Shown: piece by piece, positions 8,780 to 30,344 of the stretch | Position numbering within the stretch: the first letter of the stretch is position 1 | Layout of the letters: each line of letters begins with the position of its first letter | Origin: Chloroflexota bacterium | GTDB lineage: Bacteria; Chloroflexota; Dehalococcoidia; Lucifugimonadales; Lucifugimonadaceae | Length of the DNA stretch: 64,000 nt | NCBI GenBank assembly: GCA_027624075.1 | Contig: JAQBUH010000001.1 | Location: forward strand, 149,150 to 213,149 | Direction: 5' to 3' | Notes under the pieces: generated by a model | The model's database searches: none | The model's input: only the letters and a program-made list of their open reading frames with translations | Told to the model about the DNA's origin: nothing | Made by a program: the position numbers and the translations under genes

Positions 8780-8796
8780 TAGTCTCCGTCCGGAGC

Positions 8797-9504: not shown

Positions 9505-9551
9505 TCCCGGTTCCTCGTAAATGTGCGCCGGCCCAGTGATCTGGGAGGCTC

Positions 9552-10625
9552 TCAGACCTTAAGCGCCTCAAGTCCGTCGAGGCTGAACTCATCCTCGACG
9601 AAATAGCGGACCCTGGTTTTCTTGTATTCCCGGGTGCTGTAGAGGAGCAGACGGTCGTGGAGACCTGTCTTGGTCTCGATATCCTGGGCTATCTCCTCAC
9701 ACTCGGCCTCGGTGGTGGCGTGGACCATCGTAAAGTGTGAGTAGTCCCAGTCTTCGTAGGTCGGCCGCTGGTAGCAGTGAGTGACTGCCGGCGATTTCGC
9801 CATGATCTCACCGACCTCTTGCGCCCGCTCCTCCGGCACCTTCCAAACGATCATAGCGTTGGCGTTGAACCCGGCTCTGCGGTGATACAGCACAGCGCTG
9901 TAGCGCCGCATCAGCCGCCTGTCGACCATGGCGGCGCCGTAGTCGAACAGCTCGTCAACCGTCATGCCGAGGCGCTCGGCCATAGGATCGAACGGCCTGC
10001 TCTCGAGAGGGAGGTCGTCCTGGAGTTCCTTGATGAATGCGACGTCCAGGTCAGACAGCTCCTGTGCCTGGTTCCAGCCTTCGCCGGGTTTGGTCGAAGC
10101 TCCGTTCGTTGTGGAGCCGGGTCCATCAGGCACAAAGTAAGTCCGTGCGTCCGAGACCTTTTTCTCCATGTCAAAGTTGACGCCGATCTTGAAGAACCTG
10201 ATCGTCGGAAGCAGACGTGTCGCCTCTGCTCCGGTGACGCGCCCGAGGGTTGCCACGTCGTCAGGGATCGATCTGCCGGGTGGCACTGCGAGGGTGAACC
10301 ACAGGTTAAATTGGCCCACGCGTGCGTAGTTGTGGCTGATCCCCGGATGCCTGTTCAGGAACTGCGCCGCCGCATCCAGCTTATCTGCCGGAAAGCGCAT
10401 TGCAACGAGGGTAGAGGTGTAGCCAAGCCGCCGAGTGTCGAATATCGCTCCAACCTGCCGGACGACATTCTTCTTCTTGAGCACACCAACGCGGTCGAAC
10501 ACCTCTTGCTCGCTGAGCCCGGCTTTATCACCAATCGCTTTCCACGGCTCTCGGACCAGCGGGAAATCCGATTGGAGGATGTTCAGAATCTTCCTGTCAA
10601 TGGAATCGAACTCAGACTGAGGCAT
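9552..10625 (-). CDS. Siroheme decarboxylase, AhbA-AhbB (NirD/L-type) fusion of two Lrp/AsnC-like domains
   Basis: About 357 residues with two repeated units. Each has a winged helix followed by an Lrp/AsnC-type domain. Unit 1 begins FDSIDRKILNILQSDFPL, unit 2 begins LSDLDVAFIKELQDDLPL. Proteins of this family decarboxylate siroheme to didecarboxysiroheme, in the alternative heme pathway (AhbA/AhbB) or on the way to heme d1 (NirD/L/G/H). The second unit has the B-type pattern (LMRRYSAVLYHRRAGFNANA, HCYQRP, TREYKKTRVRYF). The position at the head of a hem operon, with the siroheme-making enzymes downstream, supports this over a transcription-factor role. I chose the ATG at 10625; the ORF-track start at 10688 would sit almost at a possible -10 element. 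Confidence 0.88.
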   Translation of the reverse strand: MPQSEFDSIDRKILNILQSDFPLVREPWKAIGDKAGLSEQEVFDRVGVLKKKNVVRQVGAIFDTRRLGYTSTLVAMRFPADKLDAAAQFLNRHPGISHNYARVGQFNLWFTLAVPPGRSIPDDVATLGRVTGAEATRLLPTIRFFKIGVNFDMEKKVSDARTYFVPDGPGSTTNGASTKPGEGWNQAQELSDLDVAFIKELQDDLPLESRPFDPMAERLGMTVDELFDYGAAMVDRRLMRRYSAVLYHRRAGFNANAMIVWKVPEERAQEVGEIMAKSPAVTHCYQRPTYEDWDYSHFTMVHATTEAECEEIAQDIETKTGLHDRLLLYSTREYKKTRVRYFVEDEFSLDGLEALKV

Positions 10626-10697
10626 GAGCGTAGCCGGGTATTCTCCGCCTCCGGGCCTGCCGGAGGGCACGTGGATGATGGGGCTCAACCAGCGAAT

Positions 10698-10803: not shown

Positions 10804-11769
10804 TCACCGCCGGGAGGCAGCCCATGACTCGATTGCCTGCCGGGAACTGTGCTCTGGCTTCCAGCCAAGCTCCGAGGCGATCTTGTCTATCGACACGAGC
10901 CACGGGTACCGGATGAACGACAGGCCGGCAGACGGCGAGCGCCGCTGCAGCCTGAGCTTCCAGGTGAGGTCGATGACTCCTTTGAGCAACGGCGCGGGCG
11001 CCGGCACAACCTTCCCGCCGGCGATCTTCACCATCGATCTCCAACTTACGGTGCCGCTCCCTGCGATGTTGTAGATCCCTCGTGAGCCTTGCTTGAGCAC
11101 AGCGTCAATCGCTGACGCGTAGTCGTCGACGTGCAGGAACTGCATGTCCGGGTTTGCCCCGGCGGGCGCAGGCAAGAAACGCATCCTGAGTGAATCCGTG
11201 ATGAAGTTACTTGCTCCCGGTCCCATCACGACGCAGCCGCGCAGTATCGAAACGGCGCAGTCTGGATGCTCAACTCCGTATCGTGTCAGCAGCTTTTCCG
11301 CCTCAACCTTATGCTCTGAATAGCTGAACCCGGTCACCGGGTTCACAGGGTCGGTCTCCTTGAACGGCTCAGTGAAGCCAGGGTGGGCGCCGTAGACGGT
11401 GCTGCTGCTGAGATACACGATCTGGCGCACTCCGGCCTTCGAGCAGGCGTTCAGTAGCCGCTCCGTTGCGTCTACGTTCACATCGCGTGCTCCGGATGCG
11501 TCACGGGCGTGACGCTGTGGCCGCAACTGAAAGGCGAGGTGAATGACGGTGTCGATATCGTAGCCGGCGAGGAGGTCATCCACCGGCTCCCTGATATCGC
11601 GTATCACGGAGACGAAACGGCGCGTCTCTCCCGCTGGTCCCAGGCTTTGCCTGGTGTCAACCGCAACTGCTAAAGACGTTTCGTCCATGGCTGTGACGCG
11701 GTCGAGAGTCGCCTCGCCAAGGAACCCGGCGGAACCCGTTATCAGGACATGCCTTTTCGAGTCAGTCAC
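10804..11769 (-). CDS. NAD-dependent epimerase/dehydratase (extended SDR)
   Basis: About 321 residues with an N-terminal Rossmann motif LITGSAGFLGEA and the active-site pair YSEHK (YxxxK) after STVYGAHPG. These mark the extended short-chain dehydrogenase family that modifies nucleotide sugars or other oxidised substrates. The substrate cannot be named. The ORF track starts at 11799. I prefer the GTG at 11769, which overlaps the upstream stop by 8 bases and has GAGG six bases ahead; this also gives a normal N-terminus (TDSKRHVLITG). It is the last gene of the long minus-strand run that begins with hopanoid genes. Confidence 0.82.
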   Translation of the reverse strand: MTDSKRHVLITGSAGFLGEATLDRVTAMDETSLAVAVDTRQSLGPAGETRRFVSVIRDIREPVDDLLAGYDIDTVIHLAFQLRPQRHARDASGARDVNVDATERLLNACSKAGVRQIVYLSSSTVYGAHPGFTEPFKETDPVNPVTGFSYSEHKVEAEKLLTRYGVEHPDCAVSILRGCVVMGPGASNFITDSLRMRFLPAPAGANPDMQFLHVDDYASAIDAVLKQGSRGIYNIAGSGTVSWRSMVKIAGGKVVPAPAPLLKGVIDLTWKLRLQRRSPSAGLSFIRYPWLVSIDKIASELGWKPEHSSRQAIESWAASRR

Positions 11770-12133
11770 CCTTAACCTCATCGGTGAAGTCGAAGCCAAT
11801 CTTGCCGAAGCCCGGCACTATAAACCCCATCCAGACTTTGTGTGGCCCGTGGGCGAGCTGCGCGCCGTTGATCGTTATGGCAATTGAGCGGTTCATCTTC
11901 AGGCCAAACGTCGTCTGGTCTGTCACGTTATCGAACGTGATGTCCTGTCCATCCTGGTGAAACGAGGATGCGGTCATCGCAACCTCCTGATCGTCGACCC
12001 TCAGCGGCAGCATCCCTTTTGCGTAGCCGGAGCCGAGCGAATTCTTCAGGGTGAAGCTCCAGCCGGAGCCGGTATTTTGCAGACTCCCCTTTACATAGAG
12101 CCTCCGCAGAATGAACGCTGGAACTCCCGGCAT
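11762..12133 (-). CDS. Unknown 123-residue protein
   Basis: I do not recognise the family. The ORF-track version (204 residues) starts inside the aldolase gene in another frame and its first 81 residues look like shadow sequence. The ATG at 12133 has AGGAG five bases upstream and begins MPGVPAFILRRLYVKGSL. The protein has no signal peptide or membrane span and is rich in beta-type alternation, ending in a stretch with GPHKVWMGFIVPGFGKIGF. It could be a small lipid- or ligand-binding barrel. It sits 65 bases after the class II aldolase gene and is coupled to the downstream epimerase by an 8-base overlap, so it is probably co-translated. Confidence 0.7.
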   Translation of the reverse strand: MPGVPAFILRRLYVKGSLQNTGSGWSFTLKNSLGSGYAKGMLPLRVDDQEVAMTASSFHQDGQDITFDNVTDQTTFGLKMNRSIAITINGAQLAHGPHKVWMGFIVPGFGKIGFDFTDEVKGD

Positions 12134-12198
12134 ATTTACTCCTGACCACCCGGCGCGAACAAGCGCTGCGTTCGATAAGCCGTTTGAAGGCTGGAATT

Positions 12199-12873
12199 CT
12201 AGTCGGTTCCCGCGAGGCCTGACCGCATCAAATAGACCTGGCGCTCCGCATCTACCGCAAACTCTGGCAACTCCGTCGCTCCGCCAATCGTCTCCGCGTG
12301 GACATAGATCTGGGCAACCCGCTCGACAAGGACCGCCACCCGCATCGCCTCGGCGAGCGTCGGCGCGACGGCGCACATTCCGTGATTCCGGAGCAGCACC
12401 GCTCGCCGGTCGCCAAGGGCCTCAACTCCGGCGGCGGCCAGCTCAGGCGTTCCCGGAAAGCCGTAGTCAGCGACCTCGATCGGGCCGCCAATGTATACCA
12501 CCATTTCATCAACTATCGGCGGGATATGAGTTGACGTGACTGCGGCGACGCTGGCAAACAACGAATGTGTGTGTACGATCGCGTTCACGTCCGGACGGTT
12601 GCGGTAGATGCCAAGATGAAGCAGAGACTCGGTGGACGGCACCAACTCGGCGCCGACCGGCTCAAGCTCTCCATCGACCACGACGAGCCCGGCCGCGTCC
12701 AGCAGGTCGTAGGTGACTCCGGCCGGTGTGATCAGGTAGCGCTCGTCACCGCCCTCGAAAGGAAGCCTCAACGAGACGTTCCCACTCGATCCGGAGACGA
12801 GCCCGCGGCTGTCGAGTTCTCGAACGGCTGCGATCAGCGTCTCTCTCTCGATCTCGTAAAGCGGTGCTGGCAT
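12199..12873 (-). CDS. Class II aldolase/adducin family protein
   Basis: A 224-residue member of the fuculose-phosphate aldolase/adducin fold. Metal-binding histidines are seen in AIVHTHSLFASV and LLRNHGMCAVAPT, and the family SGNVSLR segment lies near residue 30. Family members cleave or decarboxylate phosphorylated sugars or sugar acids (fuculose-1-P, ribulose-5-P epimerase AraD, 3-oxo-tetronate-4-P). An FGGY kinase and a 2-hydroxyacid dehydrogenase lie just upstream, so a kinase-then-aldolase sequence on a sugar-like substrate is a reasonable inference. The specific substrate is unknown. Confidence 0.88.
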   Translation of the reverse strand: MPAPLYEIERETLIAAVRELDSRGLVSGSSGNVSLRLPFEGGDERYLITPAGVTYDLLDAAGLVVVDGELEPVGAELVPSTESLLHLGIYRNRPDVNAIVHTHSLFASVAAVTSTHIPPIVDEMVVYIGGPIEVADYGFPGTPELAAAGVEALGDRRAVLLRNHGMCAVAPTLAEAMRVAVLVERVAQIYVHAETIGGATELPEFAVDAERQVYLMRSGLAGTD

Positions 12874-12947
12874 CTGTGTCTAAGCTCCAACCGGATGGTG
12901 GCAGCGTGAAACCGTAGCACGGCTGACCTCAAACCGGCACTTGCCGG

Positions 12948-14465
12948 CTAAAGTTCGATGTCTGTGAGCATTCGCTCACGCGCGCGCCAGGCGTGGTAGA
13001 GGTCGTCATACTCGGCGCCAATCGCAGATTCCGCCGTCTGCACCCTTAGCTCGTGCCTGCGCCGCTCCGTCAAGTCGAATATTTCCCCGTCGCCTGCCCC
13101 TGAAGCCGCGATAGACAGCGCGCCAAGTATGGTGCTCTCTCCCGACCTTGAGAAGCCTACCGCTCCTCCGAGTACCGAGGTGAGGATGTTCCGGAAGGTG
13201 CGAGAGCGTGTCATGCCGCCACCTGCGGCGAACCACCTCGACGGACCACCGAACATCGCCAGCCGGTCTGCGTTGTACCGGATTGCGAACGCAAAATTCT
13301 CGAGCGCGGCACGTGCCAGAGTCGCGCGGTCGGGCGGCTCGAACGATAGAGGCACGGGGAAAAATATCCCTCCACTACGCATGCCGATGTTCGACATGTG
13401 GGTGAATGACGGCCCCAGATATCCGGCTGCGCCGTTGGCGCCCGGCTCAATGCGCGCCGCCTGCCGGTCAAGCCGCTCCATCGCCTTCTCGGGGTCTTCG
13501 CCCTGGCAGATCAGCGAGACCAGCCAGTGGTACGCTCCGCCCATCTCCCCCGCGTTGCCCTCGACGGTCCACGCGCCAGGCAGCACATGACGACCTGTCC
13601 ACATTGCGTGGGTGCTATCGAAAAGCGGGAGGTTTGTCACTCTCTGGACAGCCGCGCTCCAGCCCGCGATCACGCCTGACGTCTCTGGCTCAGAGACACC
13701 GAGTCCGGCAAGTCCCACCTGGGAGTCTGGGCCGGCTGCGATCACGGGCGTTCCGGGAGATAGTCCCATGGCGCGCGCCACCGTTGTGACCAGCTTTCCA
13801 ACGACCGATCCGGACGGGCATGTCGGAGGCAGGTCGATTTCGTCGAGGCCGGCGTATGACGCCAGCCCGGTCGCAGGCGCTCCAGTCGCAACGAGCCCCA
13901 GTCCGGACTCGCACGCCAGCGCCGACTCCATCAGCAGAATGCCGGTCATCCGGAACGCCAGCCAGTCGGCCAGCCCGGAGACCGTTCGCAGATTCTCGTA
14001 CGATTCCGGCCGCTCCTGTTTGAGCCACAGCATGCGTGCCCACGCCGTAAGCATTGCGGGGCCGTGGCCGGTCATCTGCCACAGCATATTGCCGGCGTCG
14101 GCGTCGATCTGGCCGCCCTGGAAAACCCCGCGCATGTCCCTGTTCGGCCCTGAGTACAGCTCCTTACCGTCGTGGCCGTACATCACAAGGCCGAGCCGCT
14201 GACTGGTGACGGCGACGGACCTGACCTGATCGCCCGCGATCCCGGCGTCGCGCAGAGCCTTCTTCGACGCCTCGCCAACCGATTTCCACGCGGTCTCAGG
14301 GGAGAACTCGAGCGCCGTGTCGGGTCCGTCTTCCGGGCGCGTGTACTTGACCGGAATGCGCACAATCGAGAGTGGCTGGCCTGTCGCGGGGCCAACCGCT
14401 GCCCTGATGTGACTGCTCCCGAAGTCGATTGCCATGTACAGCGGCCGGGGCTTACGTGATGCCAC
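12948..14465 (-). CDS. FGGY-family carbohydrate kinase
   Basis: About 505 residues in two actin-like ATPase domains. The N-terminal phosphate motif is MAIDFGSSHIRAAVG; the hinge and second domain include TPVIAAGPDSQVGLAGLG, and later AAGGGMTRSRTFRNIL. FGGY kinases phosphorylate glycerol, xylulose, ribulose, fuculose, erythritol or AI-2. The general wording is closest, by eye, to LsrK/xylulokinase-like members, but the substrate is not determined. I moved the start from 14489 to the GTG at 14465, which has GGGAGAG upstream and overlaps the dehydrogenase gene by 14 bases. It probably acts with the flanking dehydrogenase and aldolase. Confidence 0.88.
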   Translation of the reverse strand: MASRKPRPLYMAIDFGSSHIRAAVGPATGQPLSIVRIPVKYTRPEDGPDTALEFSPETAWKSVGEASKKALRDAGIAGDQVRSVAVTSQRLGLVMYGHDGKELYSGPNRDMRGVFQGGQIDADAGNMLWQMTGHGPAMLTAWARMLWLKQERPESYENLRTVSGLADWLAFRMTGILLMESALACESGLGLVATGAPATGLASYAGLDEIDLPPTCPSGSVVGKLVTTVARAMGLSPGTPVIAAGPDSQVGLAGLGVSEPETSGVIAGWSAAVQRVTNLPLFDSTHAMWTGRHVLPGAWTVEGNAGEMGGAYHWLVSLICQGEDPEKAMERLDRQAARIEPGANGAAGYLGPSFTHMSNIGMRSGGIFFPVPLSFEPPDRATLARAALENFAFAIRYNADRLAMFGGPSRWFAAGGGMTRSRTFRNILTSVLGGAVGFSRSGESTILGALSIAASGAGDGEIFDLTERRRHELRVQTAESAIGAEYDDLYHAWRARERMLTDIEL

Positions 14466-15459
14466 GGCGTCTCTCCCATACCTCGTCATTGACGATGTTT
14501 ATAGGTCGCTCTCCGCGCGAAAACCGGATCAGGTCTCCAGCCACCGCGGCGGAGTGGCGGATGATCGTGTCTTCAGTGGCGCCGCCGATGTGCGGAGTGA
14601 GCACCATGTTTGGCAGTGCAAGAAGCGGGCTTGCCGGGTCGACAGGATGGCTGGAAAAGATGTCGATGCCGGCCGCGGCGAGATGGCCCGTTGAGAGAGC
14701 GTTTATCATCGCCTCCTCGTCAACGAGTTCAGCCGACGCCGTGTTCACCAGGACCGCTCCATGCTTCATCAAGCCGACCCTGCGTTCGTCGATCAGAGCT
14801 GAGCCATCTTCGGCTGGCGGGGCATGCAGCGTCACAAAGTCGGACGACTCAAGCAGGAAGTCCAGGTCTGTCCAGGTGACTTTGTAGCCGCTCGACTGCG
14901 CCGGGCTGACGAACGGGTCGTAACCGAGTACGTTCATGCCAAAGGCATTGCACAGCCCGGCCACTCTCCGGCCGATAGCGCCAAGACCGATCACACCTGC
15001 GATTTTGCCGCCAAGCTCTGTCCCGCGCAGGTCGCGATATGGCGCTGTCGGCGATTCCCACCGGCGTTCCCGCACGTATCGGTCTGCCTCCACAATCCGC
15101 CTGCAAGCCGTCAGCATCAGCGCGATCGTCAACTCTGAGACGGCTGCGGCGTTCCTGCCGGGAGTGTTTACGACAACGACTCCGCGCTCAGTGGCGGCGT
15201 CAACATCGATCTGGTTTAGAGCAGAGCGGCAAATGCCTGCCAGCCTCAGGCCGGGCGCGGCGTCGAAAGTCTCTGAAAACAGGAAGTCTGCCTCGACGAT
15301 GACGGCGTCAAATGACTCGCGTTCCAGCCGGTGACCCAACTCTTCCGGGTCGTGGAGATCGCCCGACTCAAGCCAGCTTTCGTGGACAGGCTCAATGCCG
15401 GCGTTCTTTAGTTCCGACAGCGATGCTTCCGCGAACGGAGCAAGTATGAGGGCGCGCAT
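14452..15459 (-). CDS. D-isomer-specific 2-hydroxyacid dehydrogenase
   Basis: A 335-residue NAD(P)-dependent dehydrogenase of the phosphoglycerate dehydrogenase type. It has the Rossmann motif GVIGLGAIGRRVAG, the conserved arginine region (LAGICRSALNQID) and the catalytic histidine in LTPHIGGATEDTI. There is no ACT or other regulatory tail, so a general 2-ketoacid/2-hydroxyacid substrate is likely. Its ATG lies 18 bases after the stop of hpnE, which makes it the bridge between the hopanoid genes and the kinase/aldolase genes. A second family member is found at 59803-60798. Confidence 0.9.
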   Translation of the reverse strand: MRALILAPFAEASLSELKNAGIEPVHESWLESGDLHDPEELGHRLERESFDAVIVEADFLFSETFDAAPGLRLAGICRSALNQIDVDAATERGVVVVNTPGRNAAAVSELTIALMLTACRRIVEADRYVRERRWESPTAPYRDLRGTELGGKIAGVIGLGAIGRRVAGLCNAFGMNVLGYDPFVSPAQSSGYKVTWTDLDFLLESSDFVTLHAPPAEDGSALIDERRVGLMKHGAVLVNTASAELVDEEAMINALSTGHLAAAGIDIFSSHPVDPASPLLALPNMVLTPHIGGATEDTIIRHSAAVAGDLIRFSRGERPINIVNDEVWERRRGIT

Positions 15460-15477
15460 GTGAGGTGAGTATGAGCC

Positions 15478-16857
15478 TCAGGAGCCGTTTGCGGACAGGT
15501 GTTTCACAACCGCTTCTGCCGCAAGGTTGCCGCTGCGGACGGCGCTCTCCATCGTTGACGGCCAGCCGGTGCGAGTCCAGTCACCTGCCAGGAACAGCCC
15601 CGGAACCGGCGTTTCCTGCGGCAAACGGTATTTCTCCGCCCCCGGCACAACGCGGAATGTGGCGTCGAGCATTTTGACCGTGATGAACCGGGTCACCTCT
15701 GCGTTTGCGGCCTCGGGAAACACCCTGGCCATCTCGGCGACGAAGATCTCTCTAAGCTCGGCCTTTGACCGGTCTTTCCACTGCCATGCGCCGCTCAGCG
15801 ATATCGCAATGTGCTGTCCCTGTCCGTCCGGCTCGGTCTCTTTTTCATGCATCCGGGTCACGTTGAACACCCACTGCAACGGACTGTCGAGCACAGCGAC
15901 GAACCTGTCTTCGAGGACAGGCCTGTCGTACCAGATGTGAACGCCGACAATTGGCGCTGTCTCGATACTTGCCGCGGGAGCAAAAAAACCGGCGTCGTCA
16001 TGCTCCGGTGGCAGAACGGCCAGCAGAGCAGAAGGCGGGAGGGCGACCACGACCGCGTCCGACCGGATGACCTCTCCCGACTCAAGCCTGACGCCTGTGG
16101 CGCGCCCGTTCGCGAATAAGACCTGTGCAACGTCCGCGGACGTCTCCACTCTCCCGTCATTGCGGGAGATGAAGCTCGCCGCAGATTCGCCCGCAAGGCG
16201 AGAGAGGCCGACCACCGGATAGCCGATCGCCGCTTTCGATGGCGCGCCTAGCAAGGCGGTCTGAAACAGCATCAGGCCGGCGTCCGCGCTGACGTCCTTA
16301 ATGTCGTCGTTGAGGCCTGGCAGGACGATCAGGTTCCAGAAACGGGAAATCGTCTCGTCGCTCTGCCCGTGCCTCCGGAGCCATGAGTCAAATGTCTCGT
16401 CCTCCAGCGGACCGCCGGGCCTGCGCCGTGCAAGCCTGATCCGCAACATGCCGTAGAGAAGCCTGAGCCTCCCAACAAGAGACACATGTCCGTATCCGAT
16501 CAGGGCAGGGAGGTTTGCCGCGGAGCCGGGGATCCAGGACGAGGCGCGGAGCCACGACGTCTCTCCGTTCCTGATCACCCTCGCCTCCAGGCGGCCAGGC
16601 ATCCTCACGTTGCCCCAGGCCCCGATGTCGTGCAGGAACTGCGTATAGGCTGAGCATGCGCCAACGAATACGTGCTGGCCGTTATCGACTTCGACTCCGG
16701 TTTCAGGGTCATCGAACGAAAACGCGCGGCCTCCCAGGAACGGACGCTTTTCGAGCAAGGTGATTCGGTAGCCGCGCCTCGAAAGGTCAACCCCAGCGGC
16801 CAGCCCTGCCAGGCCGCCTCCGATGATGACGACACTTTTCGGTGTTTCGGTGCTCAT
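15478..16857 (-). CDS. hpnE: Hydroxysqualene dehydroxylase (squalene-associated FAD-dependent desaturase)
   Basis: About 459 residues of the phytoene-desaturase-like amine oxidase superfamily. The FAD-binding motif VVIIGGGLAGLAAG is followed by LEKRPFLGGRAFSFDD, and the C-terminal FAD contact is PGLFLAGDWTRTGWPSTMESA. In the HpnCDE route this enzyme reduces hydroxysqualene to squalene. Its position directly after hpnD supports the assignment over a carotenoid desaturase. I use the ATG at 16857 (MSTETPKS). The ORF-track ATG at 16926 would overlap hpnD by 37 bases. Confidence 0.93.
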   Translation of the reverse strand: MSTETPKSVVIIGGGLAGLAAGVDLSRRGYRITLLEKRPFLGGRAFSFDDPETGVEVDNGQHVFVGACSAYTQFLHDIGAWGNVRMPGRLEARVIRNGETSWLRASSWIPGSAANLPALIGYGHVSLVGRLRLLYGMLRIRLARRRPGGPLEDETFDSWLRRHGQSDETISRFWNLIVLPGLNDDIKDVSADAGLMLFQTALLGAPSKAAIGYPVVGLSRLAGESAASFISRNDGRVETSADVAQVLFANGRATGVRLESGEVIRSDAVVVALPPSALLAVLPPEHDDAGFFAPAASIETAPIVGVHIWYDRPVLEDRFVAVLDSPLQWVFNVTRMHEKETEPDGQGQHIAISLSGAWQWKDRSKAELREIFVAEMARVFPEAANAEVTRFITVKMLDATFRVVPGAEKYRLPQETPVPGLFLAGDWTRTGWPSTMESAVRSGNLAAEAVVKHLSANGS

Positions 16858-16889
16858 TCTGAATGGCAGGCCAATCGAGCCGGCGCCGG

Positions 16890-17795
16890 CTAGTAGGGCA
16901 GGAAGGAGAGCCGGCTCCGGAGCCACAGTCGTGCCGCGAGAGTGAACTTGGCTCTCTTGCTGAGGCTGACCTTTCGCGACATGACGTCGTAGTCGGCGTC
17001 TTCGATCTTATCCAGGATGGCCATGTATACCTCGGCCATGGCCTGCGGGCAGGCGCGTGACCTGCGGTCGAGCAGCGGGAACAGTCTGTTGCCTCTATCG
17101 AAGTAGTTTCTGGCGCGCTTCACCTGGAACTTGATCAACTCGCGGAAGCGGTCGTTGACCTCGCCATCAACCAGTTCTGCTTCTGAGTAACCGAACCGCT
17201 CGATGTCGTCCATCGGCAGATAGATACGGCCGTTCGCCGCATCCTCGGCAACATCCCTGATCACATTCGTAAGCTGCATTGCAATCCCCAGGTCAACGGC
17301 ATAGCCAACCGCTTTTTCATCCTCGTATCCGCAGACCTCGATGCAAACGAGTCCGACGGCGCTGGCAACCTTCTTGCAATACTCGACCAGCTCGTCAAAG
17401 TTCGCATAGCGGGAGCGCGTCAGGTCCATCTCGCAGCCCTCGATCACAGCTGCGTAGTGAGACCTGCCGATTCCGAAGCGTTGCTGCGAGTCAGCGAGGG
17501 CGGTCCAGATGACGCCGGACTCCCCACCTTCGTACGCCTCTGCCAGTTTCACCTTCACGTTCGCGAGCTCTACCGCAGGGTCTCCGGCACGGTCAGGCTC
17601 GTCGACGATGTCGTCACACAGGCGACAGAAAGCGTAGGTCGCGTAGATGGCCTGCCGTTTTTCCAGCGGAAGAGTCAGGAACGCGTAATAGAAGTTAGAG
17701 GAAGCGTCGCGCGTCATCCTGGCGCACGCCTCGTATGCGTCCCTCAACTCCCGCTCTGAGTGCCGCGTCGGCGAGGTTTCTACAGTTGATGTCAA
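16890..17795 (-). CDS. hpnD: Presqualene diphosphate synthase
   Basis: A 301-residue trans-isoprenyl diphosphate synthase of the squalene/phytoene synthase family. Aspartate-rich motifs are in AFCRLCDDIVDEPDR and NVIRDVAEDAANGRIYLP. In the HpnCDE pathway HpnD condenses two farnesyl diphosphates to presqualene diphosphate. The paired paralogue (hpnC) lies just upstream and hpnE just downstream, which separates it from a phytoene synthase. The start is TTG at 17795 with no strong ribosome-binding site; it lies 39 bases after the hpnC stop. Confidence 0.93.
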   Translation of the reverse strand: MTSTVETSPTRHSERELRDAYEACARMTRDASSNFYYAFLTLPLEKRQAIYATYAFCRLCDDIVDEPDRAGDPAVELANVKVKLAEAYEGGESGVIWTALADSQQRFGIGRSHYAAVIEGCEMDLTRSRYANFDELVEYCKKVASAVGLVCIEVCGYEDEKAVGYAVDLGIAMQLTNVIRDVAEDAANGRIYLPMDDIERFGYSEAELVDGEVNDRFRELIKFQVKRARNYFDRGNRLFPLLDRRSRACPQAMAEVYMAILDKIEDADYDVMSRKVSLSKRAKFTLAARLWLRSRLSFLPY

Positions 17796-17834
17796 TTGTT
17801 ATGTCCGAATATGCCGGTCTCGGCCCTTGAACAG

Positions 17835-18791
17835 TCAACGCCCCGCCGGCCTAAACAGTCTTGGCGGAAGCGGTTGCATGCCAAGCCGACTGCGAGTATA
17901 GGCCGAAATGAGGAGGTTTAGCTTTGTGAACTTTGAAACCTGCGGGCGTTTCGCCAGCACATCATAGTCCAGCTTCTCGATTGCCCGGAGGACAGTCAGT
18001 CCGCCGCCAGTGAATAGCGCAATATCGATCCTGGCGGCGCCGTCCACGCTTTGGACCAGTTCATACCCTTTGATGAACAGCTCCCTCGTGCGGTCCACCT
18101 GGAAACGCATCAGGCGCCGGAACTCCGGAGTCGCGCTGCGTTGTTCGATCATCTCCTCCGTGACGCCGAACCGGTCCATCTCGTCCGCTGGCAAGTAGAC
18201 CCGGCCCATCTCGAAGTCCCGGTAAACGTCCTGCCAGAAGTTGGCAAGCTGCAAGGCTGTGCAGGTGCTGTCTGCAAGGGCTCGAAGCGCAGGATCCCTG
18301 TACCCGAACATATAGAGGACTAGATGGCCGACAGGGTTTGCGGAATGGTCGCAGTAGTCCAGCAGTTCCGCATAGTCAGGGTGCTTCAGAAGGTGCTGGT
18401 CGCGCCTGTTCGCCTCGATCAACCTATCGAACGGCTCGCGCGGAATGTCGAACCGCATGATCGTGTCCTGCAGAGCCAAAAAGAAAGGGTGAGCGGGAGT
18501 TCCGTCGTAACACAGGCCAAGCTGCCTCTCCCACTCGCTCAGCAGTTCCAGCCGGTCTCCGGCCGCCTCATCTCCCAGGTCGTCCACGCCCCGGCAGAAG
18601 GCGTACACAGAGTAGAAGTGTCTGCGTAGCTCGCGAGGGATCAGCCGGGTCCCGACGGAGAAGTTCTCGTAGTGGGTCTTTGCAAGCTGCTCGCAGTGAG
18701 CGAACGCCTCTGCAACCTGCTCAGAAGTTCCGGGAGCGGACACCATTTCTGGCCCGGGAAGAGTTGCGCCGCCGCCGGCTGAGGTCTGCAT
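17835..18791 (-). CDS. hpnC: Hydroxysqualene synthase (HpnC)
   Basis: About 318 residues, a paralogue of hpnD in the same fold. The two aspartate motifs appear as YAFCRGVDDLGDEAAGD and LANFWQDVYRDFEMGRVYLP. In the known pathway HpnC turns presqualene diphosphate into hydroxysqualene. The ORF track begins at a GTG (18812). The ATG at 18791 is preferred because GAGGAG lies nine bases upstream. The N-terminal 25 residues are low-complexity and probably disordered. Confidence 0.93.
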   Translation of the reverse strand: MQTSAGGGATLPGPEMVSAPGTSEQVAEAFAHCEQLAKTHYENFSVGTRLIPRELRRHFYSVYAFCRGVDDLGDEAAGDRLELLSEWERQLGLCYDGTPAHPFFLALQDTIMRFDIPREPFDRLIEANRRDQHLLKHPDYAELLDYCDHSANPVGHLVLYMFGYRDPALRALADSTCTALQLANFWQDVYRDFEMGRVYLPADEMDRFGVTEEMIEQRSATPEFRRLMRFQVDRTRELFIKGYELVQSVDGAARIDIALFTGGGLTVLRAIEKLDYDVLAKRPQVSKFTKLNLLISAYTRSRLGMQPLPPRLFRPAGR

Positions 18792-18833
18792 GGCGTACGG
18801 CTCCTCAATCACACGCTGTTGAGCGCGTGACGG

Positions 18834-19355
18834 TCAGGCGAGGCCTGTCACCTGGACGGCGATTTTACGGGGCTTCGGCTCATCCAGCTCAACTACCAAT
18901 ATGCGCTGGAACTCTCCGAGCAAAACGCGCCCGTCAATGACTGGAACAGTCTCGTTGGTGCCAAGGACCATGTGTTGGCAGTGGGCGTGGCCGTTCGGAC
19001 ATTCGTTGGGCCGGACGCTTACTGTGCGGATGGCAAAGTCGTTGTGCCCGTAGTACATATCTTTCGGGGCCATGCGGTCCAGGAAGTGCTCCATGTCTGT
19101 CAGGAGCAGTGGCTCGTTCTCATTGATGATCACCGAGCATGTGGTGTGGGTGCTATGAATAATCACCTGGCCGCTGGATACACCTGACTCTGTCACGAGT
19201 TCAACAACCTTATCCGTGACATCCACGAAGTCGGGCGCGTCCCTAGTCTCAACAGACAGTATCCTGCTGAACACTCTCCACTCGCTCCCGGTTACAAGAC
19301 CCCCGGGAGTAGCACCGTTGAGAACGCTGATTCGACCGGCTTCGACAGCCGACAT
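18834..19355 (-). CDS. YjbQ/UPF0047 family protein
   Basis: About 173 residues of the YjbQ family. Conserved parts are IIHSTHTTCSVIINENEP, the histidine-rich HAHCQHMVLGTNETVPV and a closing LLGEFQRILVVELDEP. Members fold as a small barrel with a metal-like site and have been reported to show a side thiamin-phosphate synthase activity; the true role is unsettled. It lies inside the hopanoid operon, 43 bases after the cyclase gene and 42 bases before hpnC (19 to the ORF-track TTG), which may point to a role in phosphate or prenyl chemistry. Start choice is uncertain: TTG at 19379 and ATG at 19355 are both possible. Confidence 0.85.
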   Translation of the reverse strand: MSAVEAGRISVLNGATPGGLVTGSEWRVFSRILSVETRDAPDFVDVTDKVVELVTESGVSSGQVIIHSTHTTCSVIINENEPLLLTDMEHFLDRMAPKDMYYGHNDFAIRTVSVRPNECPNGHAHCQHMVLGTNETVPVIDGRVLLGEFQRILVVELDEPKPRKIAVQVTGLA

Positions 19356-19398
19356 CGCAGCCGCGTTGACCCTCTGCAAGCTCAGTTACCCCCTGCAA

Positions 19399-21474
19399 TC
19401 AACTTACGGAGACCATACTGACACCCCCGCCACTATTCCGTGCGCGATATCGCCCCAGCGCCAGCAGTGGCCAGTAAATTCGATACATATGGTACTTGAT
19501 CATGAACCCGGCAGGCAGTTCAACCGGTAGCAGGTCCTTTTCGGACGTTTCCATGCTTTTGAACCGCCTGTTTCCGACTCCGTATCCGGGGAAGCCCGTC
19601 GCAGTATACTGCGGCTCGTCCCAAGCGCCATCTGGACGCTGTGACATTACAAGGTAATTAACCCCTTTAGCCACTGCCTCGCTATCCACCCTGCCCGCCG
19701 CTATTAGCGCCAGTAAAGCCCATCCAGTCTGGGACGCCGTGCTGTCACCTTTCCCCCTCAGCCTGGGGTCTGCGTAAGAGGCACACGTCTCACCCCAGCC
19801 GCCGTCCGGGTTCTGGTGAGATACTACCCAATCCGCCGCTTTTTGAACATCCGGACCGGACATGTCGAATCCGATCGCCTCCAGACCGGGCAGCACTGCG
19901 CCCGTCCCGTAAAGATAGTTGACTCCCCACCTGCCGAACCAGGCTCCGTCAGGCTCCTGCTCCTCCCAGATGTACTTTACGGCCCGTCTTATCTCCGGCG
20001 AGTCAACCGGCCGGCCGAGCACTCCGAGAGCTTCCAGAATGTGTGCTGTGACGTCGACGCTCGGAGGATCGATCACCTCTCCGAAATCGAAGAACGGTAG
20101 TTTCACAGTGATCCGGCTCGTGTTGTCCCTGTCAAACGAACCCCACCCGCCGTTGGTGCTCTGCATCGCCATCAGCCAGCGCGTCCCCGCGTTCACAGCG
20201 CTGTCGCGGCCTGCCAGATCAGACACCTGGCCCCGGCCAATTGCGAGCAACACCTCGGCCACGTCATCGGTGTCCGGATACGAGTTGTTGTCGAACTCGA
20301 ATGCCCATCCTGCCGGCTCTACCGATGGGAGCTTGATCTGCCAGTCGCCAGGCTCCCGGATCTGGCGCGACACGAGCCAGTCCGAGGCACGCACGATGGC
20401 CGGGTCGTCACTGCTTATCCCGGACTCGAGCATAGCGTTGACCGTTAGGGCGGTGTCCCAGACAGGAGATATGCACGCTTGCAAACGCCATGTGTCCTCT
20501 GTGTCGCCAATTCCGAACCCCTCGAACCCGGCCAGACCTTGCCGCATTACGGGGTGGTCGACATCGTATCCCAACTGACGCAGAGCAATCAGCGAGTAGA
20601 CCCACGGAGGTTGAATGCCACCCCACGACCCGTCTTTCTCCTGGTGCTGGACGATCCACTCTTCAACGCGCCTTCTCGCAGGTCCGCGCAGTGGCTTGAA
20701 GGGAAACCTCTCACCTGTATGGAGCATCCGGTCAGCGATGTACACGAACCAGTCCGGCGTCAGCGCGGAGGGAGGCGGAAGCGAGTAGTCGGTATTCTTT
20801 TTGCCGTCCGGGAACAGCTCGTCGATGGCCTGCTCAGGCGGAAGTGGGTAAGTAGGGTTTTCGGAAAGGATGATCGTCATCGGAACCACAGTGGCGCGGG
20901 TCCAACTGGCGAACGAGTAGATGTTGAACGGCGCCCAGCCGGGGACGAACATGATCTCGGGGGGCAGGTAAGGAGTGCCTCTCCACTCCCACTGGCCCAT
21001 CATCGCCAGCCAGATCTTCGTGAAGACACGCGTCTTCGGCACGCCTCCGAGGGAAAGTATGAACTCCCGCGCACGGCGCATCTGCGGCGAGTCAACGTCA
21101 ACACCTGCGATCTTTAACGCCGTGTAGCACTCGGCCGACGTGCTCAGGTCACCTGGCCCGCCGTAGTACAGGCTCCATCCGCCATCCTCGCCCTGTCTTC
21201 GCTCGATATGGTTGGCGATCCTGCGGTTCCGTTCGGAGTCCTGGACGCCGAGGATGTGGGTAAGGAAAATGTACTCCGCCTCCATCGTGGGATTGGACTC
21301 CAGCTCCCCCCACCACCAGCCGTCTGCGTGCTGAATGTCTCGCAGCATCTCATGCGTGCGGTTGATGGCGACGTCGAGTGAAGCCGGTCGCCGCCCATCA
21401 GGCCGGCCTGCGAATCGGCCTGCCCGCACCTGTGGCAGTTCAGCGGACCTGGTTTCCTGGGCGATGTCACTCAC
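19399..21474 (-). CDS. shc: Squalene-hopene cyclase
   Basis: About 691 residues of the class II triterpene cyclase family, a monotopic membrane protein that folds squalene into hopene/hopanol. The proton-donating DxDD motif is DTDD in NNSYPDTDDVAEVL. Several QW repeats are visible (GGWSLYYGG, GSWGGIQPPW, GGWGSFDRDN, GAWFGRWGVNYLYG, GGWGETCASY, GAWDEPQY). The length fits the family. The ORF-track ATG at 21528 overlaps hpnA by 58 bases. The GTG at 21474 overlaps its stop by 4 bases (GTGA) and is the likelier coupled start. This is also called hpnF in hopanoid loci. Confidence 0.96.
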   Translation of the reverse strand: MSDIAQETRSAELPQVRAGRFAGRPDGRRPASLDVAINRTHEMLRDIQHADGWWWGELESNPTMEAEYIFLTHILGVQDSERNRRIANHIERRQGEDGGWSLYYGGPGDLSTSAECYTALKIAGVDVDSPQMRRAREFILSLGGVPKTRVFTKIWLAMMGQWEWRGTPYLPPEIMFVPGWAPFNIYSFASWTRATVVPMTIILSENPTYPLPPEQAIDELFPDGKKNTDYSLPPPSALTPDWFVYIADRMLHTGERFPFKPLRGPARRRVEEWIVQHQEKDGSWGGIQPPWVYSLIALRQLGYDVDHPVMRQGLAGFEGFGIGDTEDTWRLQACISPVWDTALTVNAMLESGISSDDPAIVRASDWLVSRQIREPGDWQIKLPSVEPAGWAFEFDNNSYPDTDDVAEVLLAIGRGQVSDLAGRDSAVNAGTRWLMAMQSTNGGWGSFDRDNTSRITVKLPFFDFGEVIDPPSVDVTAHILEALGVLGRPVDSPEIRRAVKYIWEEQEPDGAWFGRWGVNYLYGTGAVLPGLEAIGFDMSGPDVQKAADWVVSHQNPDGGWGETCASYADPRLRGKGDSTASQTGWALLALIAAGRVDSEAVAKGVNYLVMSQRPDGAWDEPQYTATGFPGYGVGNRRFKSMETSEKDLLPVELPAGFMIKYHMYRIYWPLLALGRYRARNSGGGVSMVSVS

Positions 21475-22526
21475 GGCCTGATACTTGCCTTGTCCGCTCG
21501 CTCTTGTGTGCCCGTCCAGGCCGGCCACGTCGGCCTGGCCTTTGTGTAGCCGTTTCTGGCGAACCAGTCAGCCGCGCGATGCAGAGACTCTGCGGCGGGC
21601 CGTTGTGGCAGCCCAAGTTCTATCACAGCTTTGGAGCAATCGACGAACATAGGATGACGCGCCACCTGCAGCCCTTCGACCGGGATGAACGGCTCTCTCC
21701 GGAGAATCCGCCCCTCGATGAGCGTGTCTATTGCGCCTGCGAAGAGGGCGACTTTGTGCGGCACTCGCACAGGCCGCCGACCCAGTCCCGTCACCTCGCC
21801 CAGCAGATCGTAAATACCGCGCAGCGTGACGTTCTCCGACCCCAGGATGTAACGCTCACCCGCTCGTCCTTTTTCGAACGCCAGCAGGTGGCCCTCTGCC
21901 ACATCGCTAACGTCGCAAACGTTCAGGCCGGTATCAACGTAACCGGGAAACCGCCGGTTCAGAAACTCAATCACGATGCGCCCTGTCGGCGTAGGTCGGG
22001 CGTCTCGGGGGCCAAAAGGCGCGGTGGGATTGACTATCACCACCTCAAACCCATGGCCGTTGAGCGACAACGCAGCCTGCTCGGCGAGCAGCTTTGAGCG
22101 CTTGTAATGTCCGGGCAGCTCGTCGATGGACGCAACTGCCGCTTCGTCCGCAAGCCTGCCTTTGCCGGGCCACTTCAGAGTTGCGACTGTGCTTGTGACG
22201 ACGGCCCTGCTAACACCTGCCGCTCTCGCTTCCCGCAACAACATCGCGGTGCCGTCAACGTTCGTGCGGTACGTTTCAGCCGGGTCAGGGTGCCAGTATG
22301 AATAGACGGCTGCGACGTGAAAGAGGCCGTCTATCCCGCGTACAGCCTCTTTGACCGACACCGGGTCCGTCACGTCGCCGGGCAGTACCTCGATCGACGG
22401 ATCAGCCGGTAGCCGCTTCTCACTGCCCGGCCGCACTAGCGCACGCACCGTGTGCCCTCGCCGGACCAGCCTGCGCGCTACCGCAGACCCGATAAAGCCG
22501 GTGGCGCCCGTAACCAGGTACTTCAT
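21471..22526 (-). CDS. hpnA: Hopanoid-associated sugar epimerase
   Basis: A 351-residue extended SDR. It has LVTGATGFIGSAVARRL at the N-terminus, the YKRSK active-site pair and an FNP-type stretch (IVNPTAPFGPRD). This arrangement, together with position in a hopanoid operon, identifies HpnA, a putative NAD-dependent epimerase/dehydratase whose exact substrate is not established. The ATG overlaps the hpnG stop by 4 bases and its own stop overlaps the cyclase start, so the three are translationally coupled. Confidence 0.9.
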   Translation of the reverse strand: MKYLVTGATGFIGSAVARRLVRRGHTVRALVRPGSEKRLPADPSIEVLPGDVTDPVSVKEAVRGIDGLFHVAAVYSYWHPDPAETYRTNVDGTAMLLREARAAGVSRAVVTSTVATLKWPGKGRLADEAAVASIDELPGHYKRSKLLAEQAALSLNGHGFEVVIVNPTAPFGPRDARPTPTGRIVIEFLNRRFPGYVDTGLNVCDVSDVAEGHLLAFEKGRAGERYILGSENVTLRGIYDLLGEVTGLGRRPVRVPHKVALFAGAIDTLIEGRILRREPFIPVEGLQVARHPMFVDCSKAVIELGLPQRPAAESLHRAADWFARNGYTKARPTWPAWTGTQERADKASIRP

Positions 22527-23365
22527 GACGTTTCGCGCCCTGCGCTTACCTGTCCGGCCGTTCCCTGCAATGCCATCTCGCCGGATACGTTAACCGCGGC
22601 GGAGAACTCCAAGAAGAATCCAGTCATCGAGCGCCGGGCGCGCGCCGCCGCTCTTGCCAGGCGGGTGAGCGCCGCAAAGTCCTTCGGATGCTGGGCAAGG
22701 TGCTTGATCACAGGCAATACTCGTCCTCCGGACGGCGCCTGGCCAATCTGGCCAACCAGGTTCGGAAGGTCCATCTCGACGGTGTCTACGATCGCCCGGA
22801 GCGCAATGAACGGGATGCCGGCATCGTAGGCGACTTCGCAGACCATGAAGCTTTCCATGTCCACGCAGGCGCCGAGCAGTTCCCTGCCGATCCAGCGCTT
22901 CATTCCGGCCGTTTTTGCAATGGTTGGCAGGTTGATTATGGGTCCCTGCTCGAAGTCGATGCCGGCTACTTCGACGGCATTTCTAGCTGCGGCAAGCAGG
23001 CCCCTGTCCGGAGTCAGCGGGTCCCCGAGCTGCTCTGCGTCCCAGTAGAACGGTGACCCGTCCAGGCGGTACAGAGTCGTGGCCAGGACAAGGTCGCCAG
23101 CCTGTAGCGTGTCCAATGTGCCGCCGCCGAAACCCAGGGATACAACGGCTGTTGGCTTGAACTCGTCGAGCGCCCATCGTGTGGCGCGAGTCGCCCTCTC
23201 CCTGCCGGCGCCGGTCAGCACAACACCTACATCGAAAGGGTGCGACTCCGGCCCGCTCCGGGAACGAAAGGCAACAACTCCTTCCAGAGCCTGCACGGAA
23301 TCGAAGGTGGCGGTGTGCAGTATCCCGTTGACCTCTTCAGACAGTGCGGCGATCAGAAGTAGCAT
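22523..23365 (-). CDS. hpnG: Hopanoid nucleoside phosphorylase (HpnG-like)
   Basis: A 280-residue protein of the PNP/UDP phosphorylase fold (LLIAALSEEVNGI, VSLGFGGGTLDTLQAGDLVL, VDMESFMVCEVAYDAGIPFIA). HpnG removes adenine from adenosylhopane to give phosphoribosylhopane, the second step in making C35 side chains. The methionine/glutamate pair in VDMES is the usual ribose-binding site of the family. It is located between hpnH and hpnA. The C-terminal tail after about residue 245 is not conserved by eye. Confidence 0.88.
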   Translation of the reverse strand: MLLLIAALSEEVNGILHTATFDSVQALEGVVAFRSRSGPESHPFDVGVVLTGAGRERATRATRWALDEFKPTAVVSLGFGGGTLDTLQAGDLVLATTLYRLDGSPFYWDAEQLGDPLTPDRGLLAAARNAVEVAGIDFEQGPIINLPTIAKTAGMKRWIGRELLGACVDMESFMVCEVAYDAGIPFIALRAIVDTVEMDLPNLVGQIGQAPSGGRVLPVIKHLAQHPKDFAALTRLARAAARARRSMTGFFLEFSAAVNVSGEMALQGTAGQVSAGRETS

Positions 23366-23412
23366 GACGGTGTCCGCGCCGGGGCCGGAGGCGGCTCGGC
23401 CGGCGATCGCCT

Positions 23413-24453
23413 CTAACCTGCGGTGATTCCGCCTTTTACGACAGCGCCTGAGCGTATGAGCTTCGCCGCTGCCCGTGGGCTGGACATAGCCTCGAAAATG
23501 GTCGTCGACTCAAAGCCGCAGTGCATCATGCAGTTGGCGCAGCGCGGGTCCTTTTCCGGGCTGCCGTACTTGTCCCACACCTCGTCCGCCATCAGGTCGT
23601 CAAGGTCCTGGGTGTGGCCGTCTGCAAGCGGGTAGCAGGGGTTGCGCCACCCCATGATGGTGTATGTCGGGTTGGTCCACGCGGTGCATGACTTGTACGT
23701 CCGCTCGCCACGCAGGAACTGCAGGTAGAGCGGGTTGTTGTAGAGACGGATCTTCTTCGTCTTCTCCGGATCGAGAACTTCCTTGAAGATATTTATCGCC
23801 TGCTGCTTCTTCAAGAAGAGCTGTTGGTTCGGCACGGTCTCATAGTCGTAGCCAGCCGTAACCATCGCTCCCTCGAACCCCATCTCCGTGGTCTTCTCCC
23901 ACAGCGTGTGGAGATCATCTGCGTCTGATCCTGTGAAGAGAGTCGTATTGCTACAGACCCTGTAACCCTTCTCAATGGCCTTCTCAGCCATCTTTATCGC
24001 GATCTGGTAGACGCCCTTGCGAGAGACCGCAACGTCATGCCGGTCACCTGTTCCATCCAGGTGGATGACCCATGCGAAATACTTGGAGGCAGGGATGCTC
24101 TGCATCATCTTGCCCATGGTCAGACCGTTGGTGCAGACGTACACGAACTTCTTGCGTGCGACGAGTTTTTCGACGAGCTCCGGCAGGTGGGGCCAGATGG
24201 TCGGCTCGCCGCCGGCGATAGAGACGACCGGCGTGTTCGCCTCATCGACGGCCTTCATGCACTCTTCGACGGTCAGTTGACGGTGGATAACAGACTCGTA
24301 CTCACGAATCCGGCCACAGCCTTCGCACGCCAGGTTGCACGCCTCGAGCGGCTCAAGCATCGTCACCAGGGGGAACCGCTTCCGTCTCCTGACGAACTTG
24401 TTGTAGAAGAGATACCAGCCAACTTTGACCGCCAACTCTTTTGGCCTGGCCAT
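23413..24453 (-). CDS. hpnH: Adenosylhopane synthase, radical SAM (HpnH)
   Basis: A 346-residue radical SAM enzyme. The cluster motif CxxxCxxC is in EACNLACEGCGRI. VSIAGGEPTIWPHLPEL follows as the SAM-binding GGEP motif, and the C-terminal extension includes CANCMMHCGFE, typical of HpnH. The enzyme adds 5'-deoxyadenosine to diploptene to make adenosylhopane. The ATG at 24453 (MARPKELAVKVGWYLFYN) has AAGGAG ten bases upstream; the ORF-track start 48 codons earlier overlaps the prenyl synthase gene. It depends on Fe-S supply, for which the suf operon is in the same window. Confidence 0.95.
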   Translation of the reverse strand: MARPKELAVKVGWYLFYNKFVRRRKRFPLVTMLEPLEACNLACEGCGRIREYESVIHRQLTVEECMKAVDEANTPVVSIAGGEPTIWPHLPELVEKLVARKKFVYVCTNGLTMGKMMQSIPASKYFAWVIHLDGTGDRHDVAVSRKGVYQIAIKMAEKAIEKGYRVCSNTTLFTGSDADDLHTLWEKTTEMGFEGAMVTAGYDYETVPNQQLFLKKQQAINIFKEVLDPEKTKKIRLYNNPLYLQFLRGERTYKSCTAWTNPTYTIMGWRNPCYPLADGHTQDLDDLMADEVWDKYGSPEKDPRCANCMMHCGFESTTIFEAMSSPRAAAKLIRSGAVVKGGITAG

Positions 24454-24526
24454 AGCGTCTCGTCTCCTTGTTAAGTCAAGCTCCGACAGTGGCGGCTTTG
24501 CGGGGACTGGCAGGGAACGGATGCCT

Positions 24527-25591
24527 TCAACTCGTCCTGACCAGCAGAAACTCGCCCAGGTCTTCCAGGTCCCTCGCCGTGTCTCCGGCAAGTTCAAGAG
24601 ACTGTATCACGCTCTTCGCATGCCGCCACCGGTCATCCGCCAGCGCCTGACAGAACTCCTGTGTCCGCAGGTCCTCCATCACCTGGAGCGCGTCCTCTAC
24701 GTCGCGACCGTCGAGCTGGCTTTTCGCGAAGATCTCCGTGATGCGTTTTTTCGCAGGGCCGGTCGCCATGCCAAGCGCGTGCACCGCCGGGAGCGCCTTC
24801 TTCTTGCGTTCGATGTCCGCGCCGACGGGCTTGCCAGTCTCCTGGCTTCCCCAGACGCCTAATATATCGTCCCTGATCTGGAATATACGGCCCAGCTCGT
24901 GTCCCATCGACCGCAGCCCGTTCGATAGCGCTCTGTCCGGGCCGTCCGGCCGTCCGACCAGCGACCCGAGGAATATCGCCGTCTCAATAAGGGCGCCGGT
25001 CTTGCGCTCGATCATGTCGAGATACTGCTCAACGGTCACTGAGTCGAGCGACTCGAACTGAATGTCGAGATACTGGCCTTCCATCATCCTGAGGTAGCTC
25101 GCAGCGAGCGCGTGTTGTGTCTCCAGCACAACCTCTACGCTAATTCCATGGTCGATGAGCCGCTCAAGCGAGCGATCAGCGATCTTCAGCATTGCGTTAC
25201 CAGAGACGATGGCGGTCGGCTCACCCCAAACGGCCCATACAGTCGGCCTGTGATGCCTGATCCTGTCCTGGTCTTCGAGGTCGTCATGTATCAGGGAGAA
25301 GTTGTGTACATACTCGAGCGAGACGGCGACCGGCATCGCCCGCTCAGGCCGTCCGCCTGCCGCTTCGGCTGCAAGGAGCGCCAGGGTCGGGCGCAGGCGC
25401 TTGCCACCGGAGCCGCCTGAGCCGGCCGGCCGTGAGCCATCTTGCTCCGTCCAGCCCATGTAGTAGCTGTGCGTCTGGTACAGGGGAAGCGAAAGACCGT
25501 CCAGCTCCGCCCTGAGCGCGACGTCAATCATCTCCTGATAGCGCGCAAAGAAGGCGGGAAGCTCTGCGGAGCGCGTCTCGTTGGGAGTCAT
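24527..25591 (-). CDS. Polyprenyl (farnesyl/geranylgeranyl) diphosphate synthase
   Basis: About 354 residues of the trans-prenyl diphosphate synthase family. The first aspartate-rich motif is LIHDDLEDQDRIRHHRPT. The second is IRDDILGVWGSQE, where the last Asp of DDxxD is replaced by Gly as in many actinobacterial and archaeal members. It supplies C15 or C20 allylic diphosphate; as the first gene of the hopanoid operon, farnesyl diphosphate for squalene is the likely product. The ORF track starts at a TTG (25597). The ATG at 25591 two codons later is as good, with no clear ribosome-binding site for either. Confidence 0.9.
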   Translation of the reverse strand: MTPNETRSAELPAFFARYQEMIDVALRAELDGLSLPLYQTHSYYMGWTEQDGSRPAGSGGSGGKRLRPTLALLAAEAAGGRPERAMPVAVSLEYVHNFSLIHDDLEDQDRIRHHRPTVWAVWGEPTAIVSGNAMLKIADRSLERLIDHGISVEVVLETQHALAASYLRMMEGQYLDIQFESLDSVTVEQYLDMIERKTGALIETAIFLGSLVGRPDGPDRALSNGLRSMGHELGRIFQIRDDILGVWGSQETGKPVGADIERKKKALPAVHALGMATGPAKKRITEIFAKSQLDGRDVEDALQVMEDLRTQEFCQALADDRWRHAKSVIQSLELAGDTARDLEDLGEFLLVRTS

Positions 25592-27442: not shown

Positions 27443-27445
27443 TCG

Positions 27446-27799: not shown

Positions 27800-27855
27800 T
27801 CCGGGCTCCAGACGGGTGTTTAAGGTCAGCTAACGAAGAAGCTGGAGAAGAGAAA

Positions 27856-30344
<2,489 letters not shown>

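Follow-up and report, generated by a model that had tools for sequence, protein, structure and literature searches.

A dehydrogenase-kinase-aldolase-epimerase gene cassette behind the hopanoid genes of Dehalococcoidia

Described hopanoid gene clusters combine the biosynthetic genes hpnA-H and shc with tailoring genes such as hpnO and hpnIKJ. The enzyme that converts ribosylhopane to bacteriohopanetetrol has not been established (PMC12583986). Here, we analyzed a stretch of 64,000 nucleotides (referred to as the window) from a Chloroflexota bacterium of the family Lucifugimonadaceae, class Dehalococcoidia (GCA_027624075.1, contig JAQBUH010000001.1, positions 149,150 to 213,149). A run of minus-strand genes at positions 10804-25591 of the window shares the core hpnH-hpnG-hpnA-shc-hpnC-hpnD-hpnE with the described clusters, and the genes shc, hpnH and hpnG that make up the core for C35 hopanoids are all present. 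Unlike in the described clusters, no hpnI, hpnJ, hpnK or hpnO was found among the open reading frames of the run, to which the search was confined, and the downstream place is taken by a cassette of five sugar-type genes. These encode a protein with a D-2-hydroxyacid dehydrogenase fold, an FGGY kinase, a class II aldolase, a protein of 123 residues, and an extended short-chain dehydrogenase/reductase (SDR). We found no description of this cassette in the open-access literature; subscription papers were mostly outside the search.

Several known systems resemble parts of the cassette. The DrdK-DrdI-DrdA pathway for disposal of 5-deoxyribose, also known as the dihydroxyacetone phosphate (DHAP) shunt, is similar in that its class II aldolase belongs to the same family, in that kinase and aldolase are adjacent, and in the proposed substrate, a 5-deoxypentose derivative. 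It differs in that the kinase of the window is of the FGGY family and not of the MTR-kinase type, and in that the genus of the window lacks an MtnA/DrdI isomerase. Moreover, the window adds an altered dehydrogenase, a protein resembling the beta subunit of C-glycoside deglycosidases (CGD), an SDR, and the linkage to hopanoid genes. Fucose/rhamnose-type pathways, which consist of an isomerase, an FGGY kinase and a class II aldolase, also place an FGGY kinase before a DHAP-type class II aldolase. However, the window lacks isomerase, transporter and regulator, and its kinase, which is closest to LsrK, remains below all equivalog cut-offs. Finally, the CGDs DgpBC and CarBC share the fold of their beta subunit with the 123-residue protein, but the identity is about 15%, and the run contains neither a TIM-barrel alpha subunit nor a C3-oxidising oxidoreductase.

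Gene neighbourhoods were compared at the level of genus, family, order and class. The order of the run recurs in about 40 distinct genomes, indicating that the arrangement is more than chance. In the Dehalococcoidia, 51 distinct cassettes bear the gene for the 123-residue protein, and 47 could be evaluated after 4 at contig ends had been left out. The cassette was located directly behind a hopanoid gene (hpnE/hpnD, or shc) on the same strand in 39 of these. Separation from the hopanoid genes in most relatives, which the original prediction had named as the observation that would speak against a link, is not what we found within the order: the cassette stands apart in 8 of the 47 cases, seven of them members of a single family (f43) and the eighth genome G038. 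In several families of the order, a nucleoside hydrolase gene (PF01156) follows the SDR gene (L040, 13316-14308; L103, 13556-14458; also L097, L100, L105, L107 and L109).

Within the window, the dehydrogenase gene starts 18 bases past the hpnE stop codon. No terminator-like site was predicted on the minus strand between the two genes, and such sites overall were not more frequent than expected from shuffled sequence (10 observed versus 11.5). The run does not end at position 10804, as had been assumed. It continues 115 bases after the SDR gene with heme genes of the siroheme route (7847-10688), which encode AhbA/B-like (siroheme-decarboxylase-like), precorrin-2 dehydrogenase-like and HemC proteins. 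Because these genes continue the same run, adjacency alone is not proof of shared function. Among the neighbourhoods of relatives that were read, heme genes adjoin the cassette only in the family of the window, so the link between hopanoid genes and cassette outlasted the one between hopanoid and heme genes.

The kinase and squalene-hopene cyclase (SHC) were then followed on a tree of 57 relatives from the order, built quickly from part of RpoB. Presence or absence of the two proteins agreed in 48 of the 57 genomes as found (21 with both, 27 with neither), and in 51 once three assemblies that were broken inside the run had been corrected. A comparison of dependent and independent models according to Pagel favoured dependence (likelihood ratio 25.4-25.8, p ~4e-5, or 3.6e-5 at a ratio of 25.8). 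With the corrected data, the kinase loss rate was about 12 in the absence of SHC and 0.63 in its presence, i.e. loss was about 19 times faster without SHC. In the class as a whole, the 123-residue protein was detected in 26 of 245 genomes, 21 of which had SHC, while 47 genomes had SHC only and 172 had neither (21/47/5/172, p = 3e-9).

Five members of the family of the window that lack both SHC and HpnH form a decay series. In G013, SHC, HpnH and HpnA are visible wrecks, and the cassette is intact but rearranged. An apparent loss of the dehydrogenase in this genome was rejected, because the gene is intact and forms one open frame with HpnE, and because aldolase, CGD-beta-like and SDR genes have been relocated by the rearrangement. 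In L085 (G061), the dehydrogenase gene has one in-frame stop, which as a single stop in a metagenome-assembled genome could be a sequencing error. L084 retains a remnant of the dehydrogenase, has lost the aldolase, and carries a G24R exchange in the kinase. G017 has lost dehydrogenase and SDR. L088 has lost these two and the aldolase as well, and its kinase has the exchanges D22E and G24K; D22 and G24 belong to the invariant residues of the kinase. The ribose motif of HpnG is degenerate in L085, L084, G017 and L088. This is the pattern expected if the module lost its use along with the hopanoids.

Second HpnG-like copies stand beside the cassette in L105 (7764-8633) and L109 (8210-8995), and the same genomes have an intact HpnH-HpnG-SHC set elsewhere (L162, L163). 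The idea that HpnG is a constant partner of the cassette was dropped, since the ribose motif is degenerate in these second copies as well as in the SHC-less relatives.

The aldolase (12199-12873; PF00596) has DrdA as its best match of solved structure (6btd, E = 1.4e-30), a 5-deoxyribulose-1-phosphate aldolase (PMC6079011). Its metal site (His101, His103, His164) and Glu82 are intact. The kinase (12948-14465, with a start at 14465 or 14489) has both FGGY domains (FGGY_N/FGGY_C, PF00370/PF02782) and is nearest to LsrK among solved structures (5ya0, 295 bits). Asp22 and the catalytic Asp255 were invariant among 21 sequences. The SDR (10804-11781; PF01370, 9e-35), the gene of which overlaps that of the 123-residue protein, had no equivalog match and no match in the PDB at 1e-15.

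The dehydrogenase (14452-15459; PF02826) differs from its canonical relatives in the active site. In a motif comparison of 74 sequences, the substrate-binding arginine of the N-T-S-R-G motif and the catalytic glutamate of the E-P motif were replaced in every cassette dehydrogenase, linked to hopanoid genes or not. Alignment to 1wwk indicated that the enzyme of the window has Ser242 for the arginine and His271 for the glutamate, and that the catalytic His290 is kept. Arginine and glutamate are both retained in canonical homologs, for example in L120 and L121. Judged from these replacements, the cassette enzyme is probably something other than a typical 2-hydroxyacid dehydrogenase.

The 123-residue protein (11762-12133) matched PF25653 (7e-18) and PF19906 (8e-4). 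Its AlphaFold2 model (pLDDT 88) was compared with known structures by Foldseek, and the top 17 of 17 hits were CGD beta subunits (E 2.7e-6 to 8e-4, TM 0.6-0.73); nothing else matched below E 1e-3. According to the model, its fold is that of the beta, or aglycone-binding, subunit of CGDs. In these enzymes, the beta subunit forms a beta sandwich and takes part in binding the aglycone, while the metal is located in the TIM-barrel alpha subunit (PMC8563793). In the cassettes, we saw no gene for a CGD alpha subunit (PF01261-like TIM barrel); the genome encodes 13 PF01261 proteins at other places. A domain resembling the CGD beta subunit, identified by eye, is fused to the N-terminus of HMG-CoA reductase, another isoprenoid enzyme, in family f145, another Chloroflexota family (L276, 58-1629). 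This fusion explains the Pfam name of the match of the 123-residue protein. A more distant relative was seen by inspection in a glycosidase cluster of family f104.

Ribosylhopane is a 5-substituted 5-deoxyribose, and thus belongs to the chemical class that is handled by DrdA-type aldolases. We tentatively propose, with a confidence somewhat short of an even chance, that the five genes form a hopanoid-coupled sugar-processing module downstream of HpnH and HpnG, which acts on the pentose derived from these enzymes. HpnH attaches an adenosyl group to hopane, and HpnG removes the adenine, leaving a pentose bonded to hopane via C5. The substrate, order of steps and product that we infer for the module would be as follows. 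The FGGY kinase would phosphorylate the keto (or oxidised) form of this hopane-bound pentose, and the aldolase would act on the phosphorylated compound, which it might split by a retro-aldol reaction into DHAP and a C32 hopanyl aldehyde. Holding the hydrophobic aglycone may be the task of the CGD-beta-like protein, and redox steps may fall to the altered dehydrogenase and the SDR. A single account would then be that the free-standing trio of dehydrogenase, kinase and aldolase acts on a soluble 5-deoxypentose, that the hopanoid form adds a subunit of aglycone-binding type, and that loss of the module follows loss of the hopanoids. The most far-reaching version is unlikely in our view. It would have SAR202-type Chloroflexota isomerise or oxidise, phosphorylate and cleave ribosylhopane to DHAP and C32 hopanyl aldehyde and not stop at bacteriohopanetetrol. 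The aldolase would receive the lipid from the CGD-beta-like subunit, C32 hopanoids would be made enzymatically, and three carbons would be recovered.

Several observations weigh against a role of the module in hopanoid processing. The trio, with its altered dehydrogenase, occurs alone in the families f46, f71, f75 and f90, which lack SHC and HpnH, and is accompanied there neither by the gene for the 123-residue protein nor by an SDR gene; the absence of the 123-residue protein from these hopanoid-less genomes, for its part, speaks for the proposal. In the dehydrogenase tree, most of these stand-alone trios form a clade of their own, and the f90 copy groups with f43. G128 and G254 (both f43) and G038 retain the module without SHC or HpnH. 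In G038, genes identified by eye as encoding a DHDPS-family protein and an LmbE-like deacetylase are inserted in the cassette (L158, 6726-9668). All five genes, with the dehydrogenase altered in the same way, are also present in family f108, in the Chloroflexota but outside the class. No hpn gene was found near the f108 cassette in the 12-18.5 kb that were read, where some SDRs and flavoproteins resemble HpnA and HpnE but are not taken for them; by inspection, genes for a flavoprotein dehydrogenase, a cupin and a member of the enolase superfamily lie nearby. The solitary trios and the f108 cassette show that the trio must also serve something other than hopanoids. Conversely, HpnH and SHC without the module are common in Dehalococcoidia (f47, f60, f61, f84), so the cassette is not a general route to bacteriohopanetetrol. 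The five genes do not include an isomerase, and mtnA is absent from 7 of 7 genomes of the genus of the window. A sign test on independent pairs separated by strongly supported branches had too few pairs for significance. The original suggestion of sugar genes as side-chain finishers is therefore upheld in part: the linkage, the dependence of kinase loss on SHC loss, the DrdA-like aldolase and the aglycone-subunit fold speak for it, and the solitary trio, f108 and the HpnH-containing lineages without cassette speak against it. MtnA had been considered as the missing isomerase. This candidate was dropped, because the mtnA-like gene inserted in the cassette of G008, on the other strand between the aldolase and CGD-beta-like genes, is a truncated 3' fragment (L042, 11782-12537, minus strand), and because of the absence of mtnA from the genus of the window.

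The main rival explanation, which is possible but on balance doubtful, is salvage of a soluble sugar, in which the module would convert a 5-deoxypentose or a nucleoside sugar (ribose, or 5-deoxyribose derived from 5'-deoxyadenosine) to DHAP and an aldehyde. It would resemble a DHAP shunt with an FGGY kinase, and would be kept beside hopanoid and heme genes through a radical SAM by-product or operon inertia. The similarity of the aldolase to DrdA, the solitary trios with identically altered dehydrogenase in hopanoid-less families, the nucleoside hydrolase behind the cassette in several families, and the heme genes of siroheme type in the family of the window, the route of which has radical SAM steps, are all consistent with salvage. 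However, HpnH adds the adenosyl group and does not release 5'-deoxyadenosine (PMC12583986), the genus of the window has no MtnA/DrdI-type isomerase, and the kinase is not of the DrdK type. Salvage also leaves unexplained why, in the order, the kinase depends on SHC and why decay followed the loss of SHC, and does not account for the CGD-beta-like subunit, which within the class is mainly confined to SHC-containing lineages.

That fold could point instead to catabolism of sugar compounds in dissolved organic matter, C-glycoside-like or otherwise alicyclic, by a module that came to lie behind the hopanoid genes by chance long ago and has been inherited vertically. The f108 neighbours, the insertions in G038 and the glycosidase cluster of f104 would fit such a role. 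We consider it improbable, since neither a CGD alpha gene, despite the 13 PF01261 proteins elsewhere in the genome, nor a transporter was seen in the cassettes, and since loss of the module tracks loss of SHC. More improbable still is that the module serves to make a polar head-group sugar, or to attach it to finished bacteriohopanepolyol, instead of processing the C5 chain. The synthesis of sugar head groups often involves kinase and epimerase-type genes, but the run contains no glycosyltransferase or nucleotidyltransferase, and a class II aldolase would be out of place.

The open reading frame listing agrees with the original description of the run as 14 minus-strand genes, none of them more than 74 bases from the next. 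When the best start of each gene is taken, the intervals are 73, 47, -4, -4, 19, 21, 39, 32 (or -37), 18, -14 (or 16), 74, 65 and -8 (or -20). The run opens, as in relatives, with a polyprenyl (farnesyl-type) diphosphate synthase (24527-25591; PF00348, 3e-52), followed by the radical SAM adenosylhopane synthase HpnH (23413-24453; TIGR03470, 402 bits, cut-off 225). The HpnG-type nucleoside phosphorylase (22523-23365) remains under the cut-off of TIGR03468 (4e-30), yet this is its best family, and its ribose-binding motif VDMES is intact. Next are the hopanoid-associated sugar epimerase HpnA (21471-22526; TIGR03466, 398 bits, cut-off 368) and SHC (19399-21474, start at 21474 or 21528), which at E <= 0.001 was matched in 30 of the 60 relatives from the order. 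HpnC (17835-18812), HpnD (16890-17795) and HpnE (15478-16857, start at 16857 or 16926) were identified from their open reading frames and, for HpnC and HpnD, from conserved order. Between SHC and HpnC lies a YjbQ/UPF0047 protein (18834-19379; PF01894, TIGR00149) that has no known hopanoid role, although its position between SHC and HpnC/HpnD is conserved in most hopanoid runs of Dehalococcoidia. Upstream of the run, divergent plus-strand genes (26504-30344), identified by eye, encode stress proteins similar to DnaJ/CbpA, MerR/HspR and ClpB.

A module that is syntenic with hopanoid genes and evolutionarily dependent on them in an abundant ocean clade, SAR202 and its relatives, provides named candidates for the finishing of the hopanoid side chain. 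If the aldolase trims the chain, marine C32 hopanoids would have a direct biological source and would not derive only from degradation, and the reading of these biomarkers would change.

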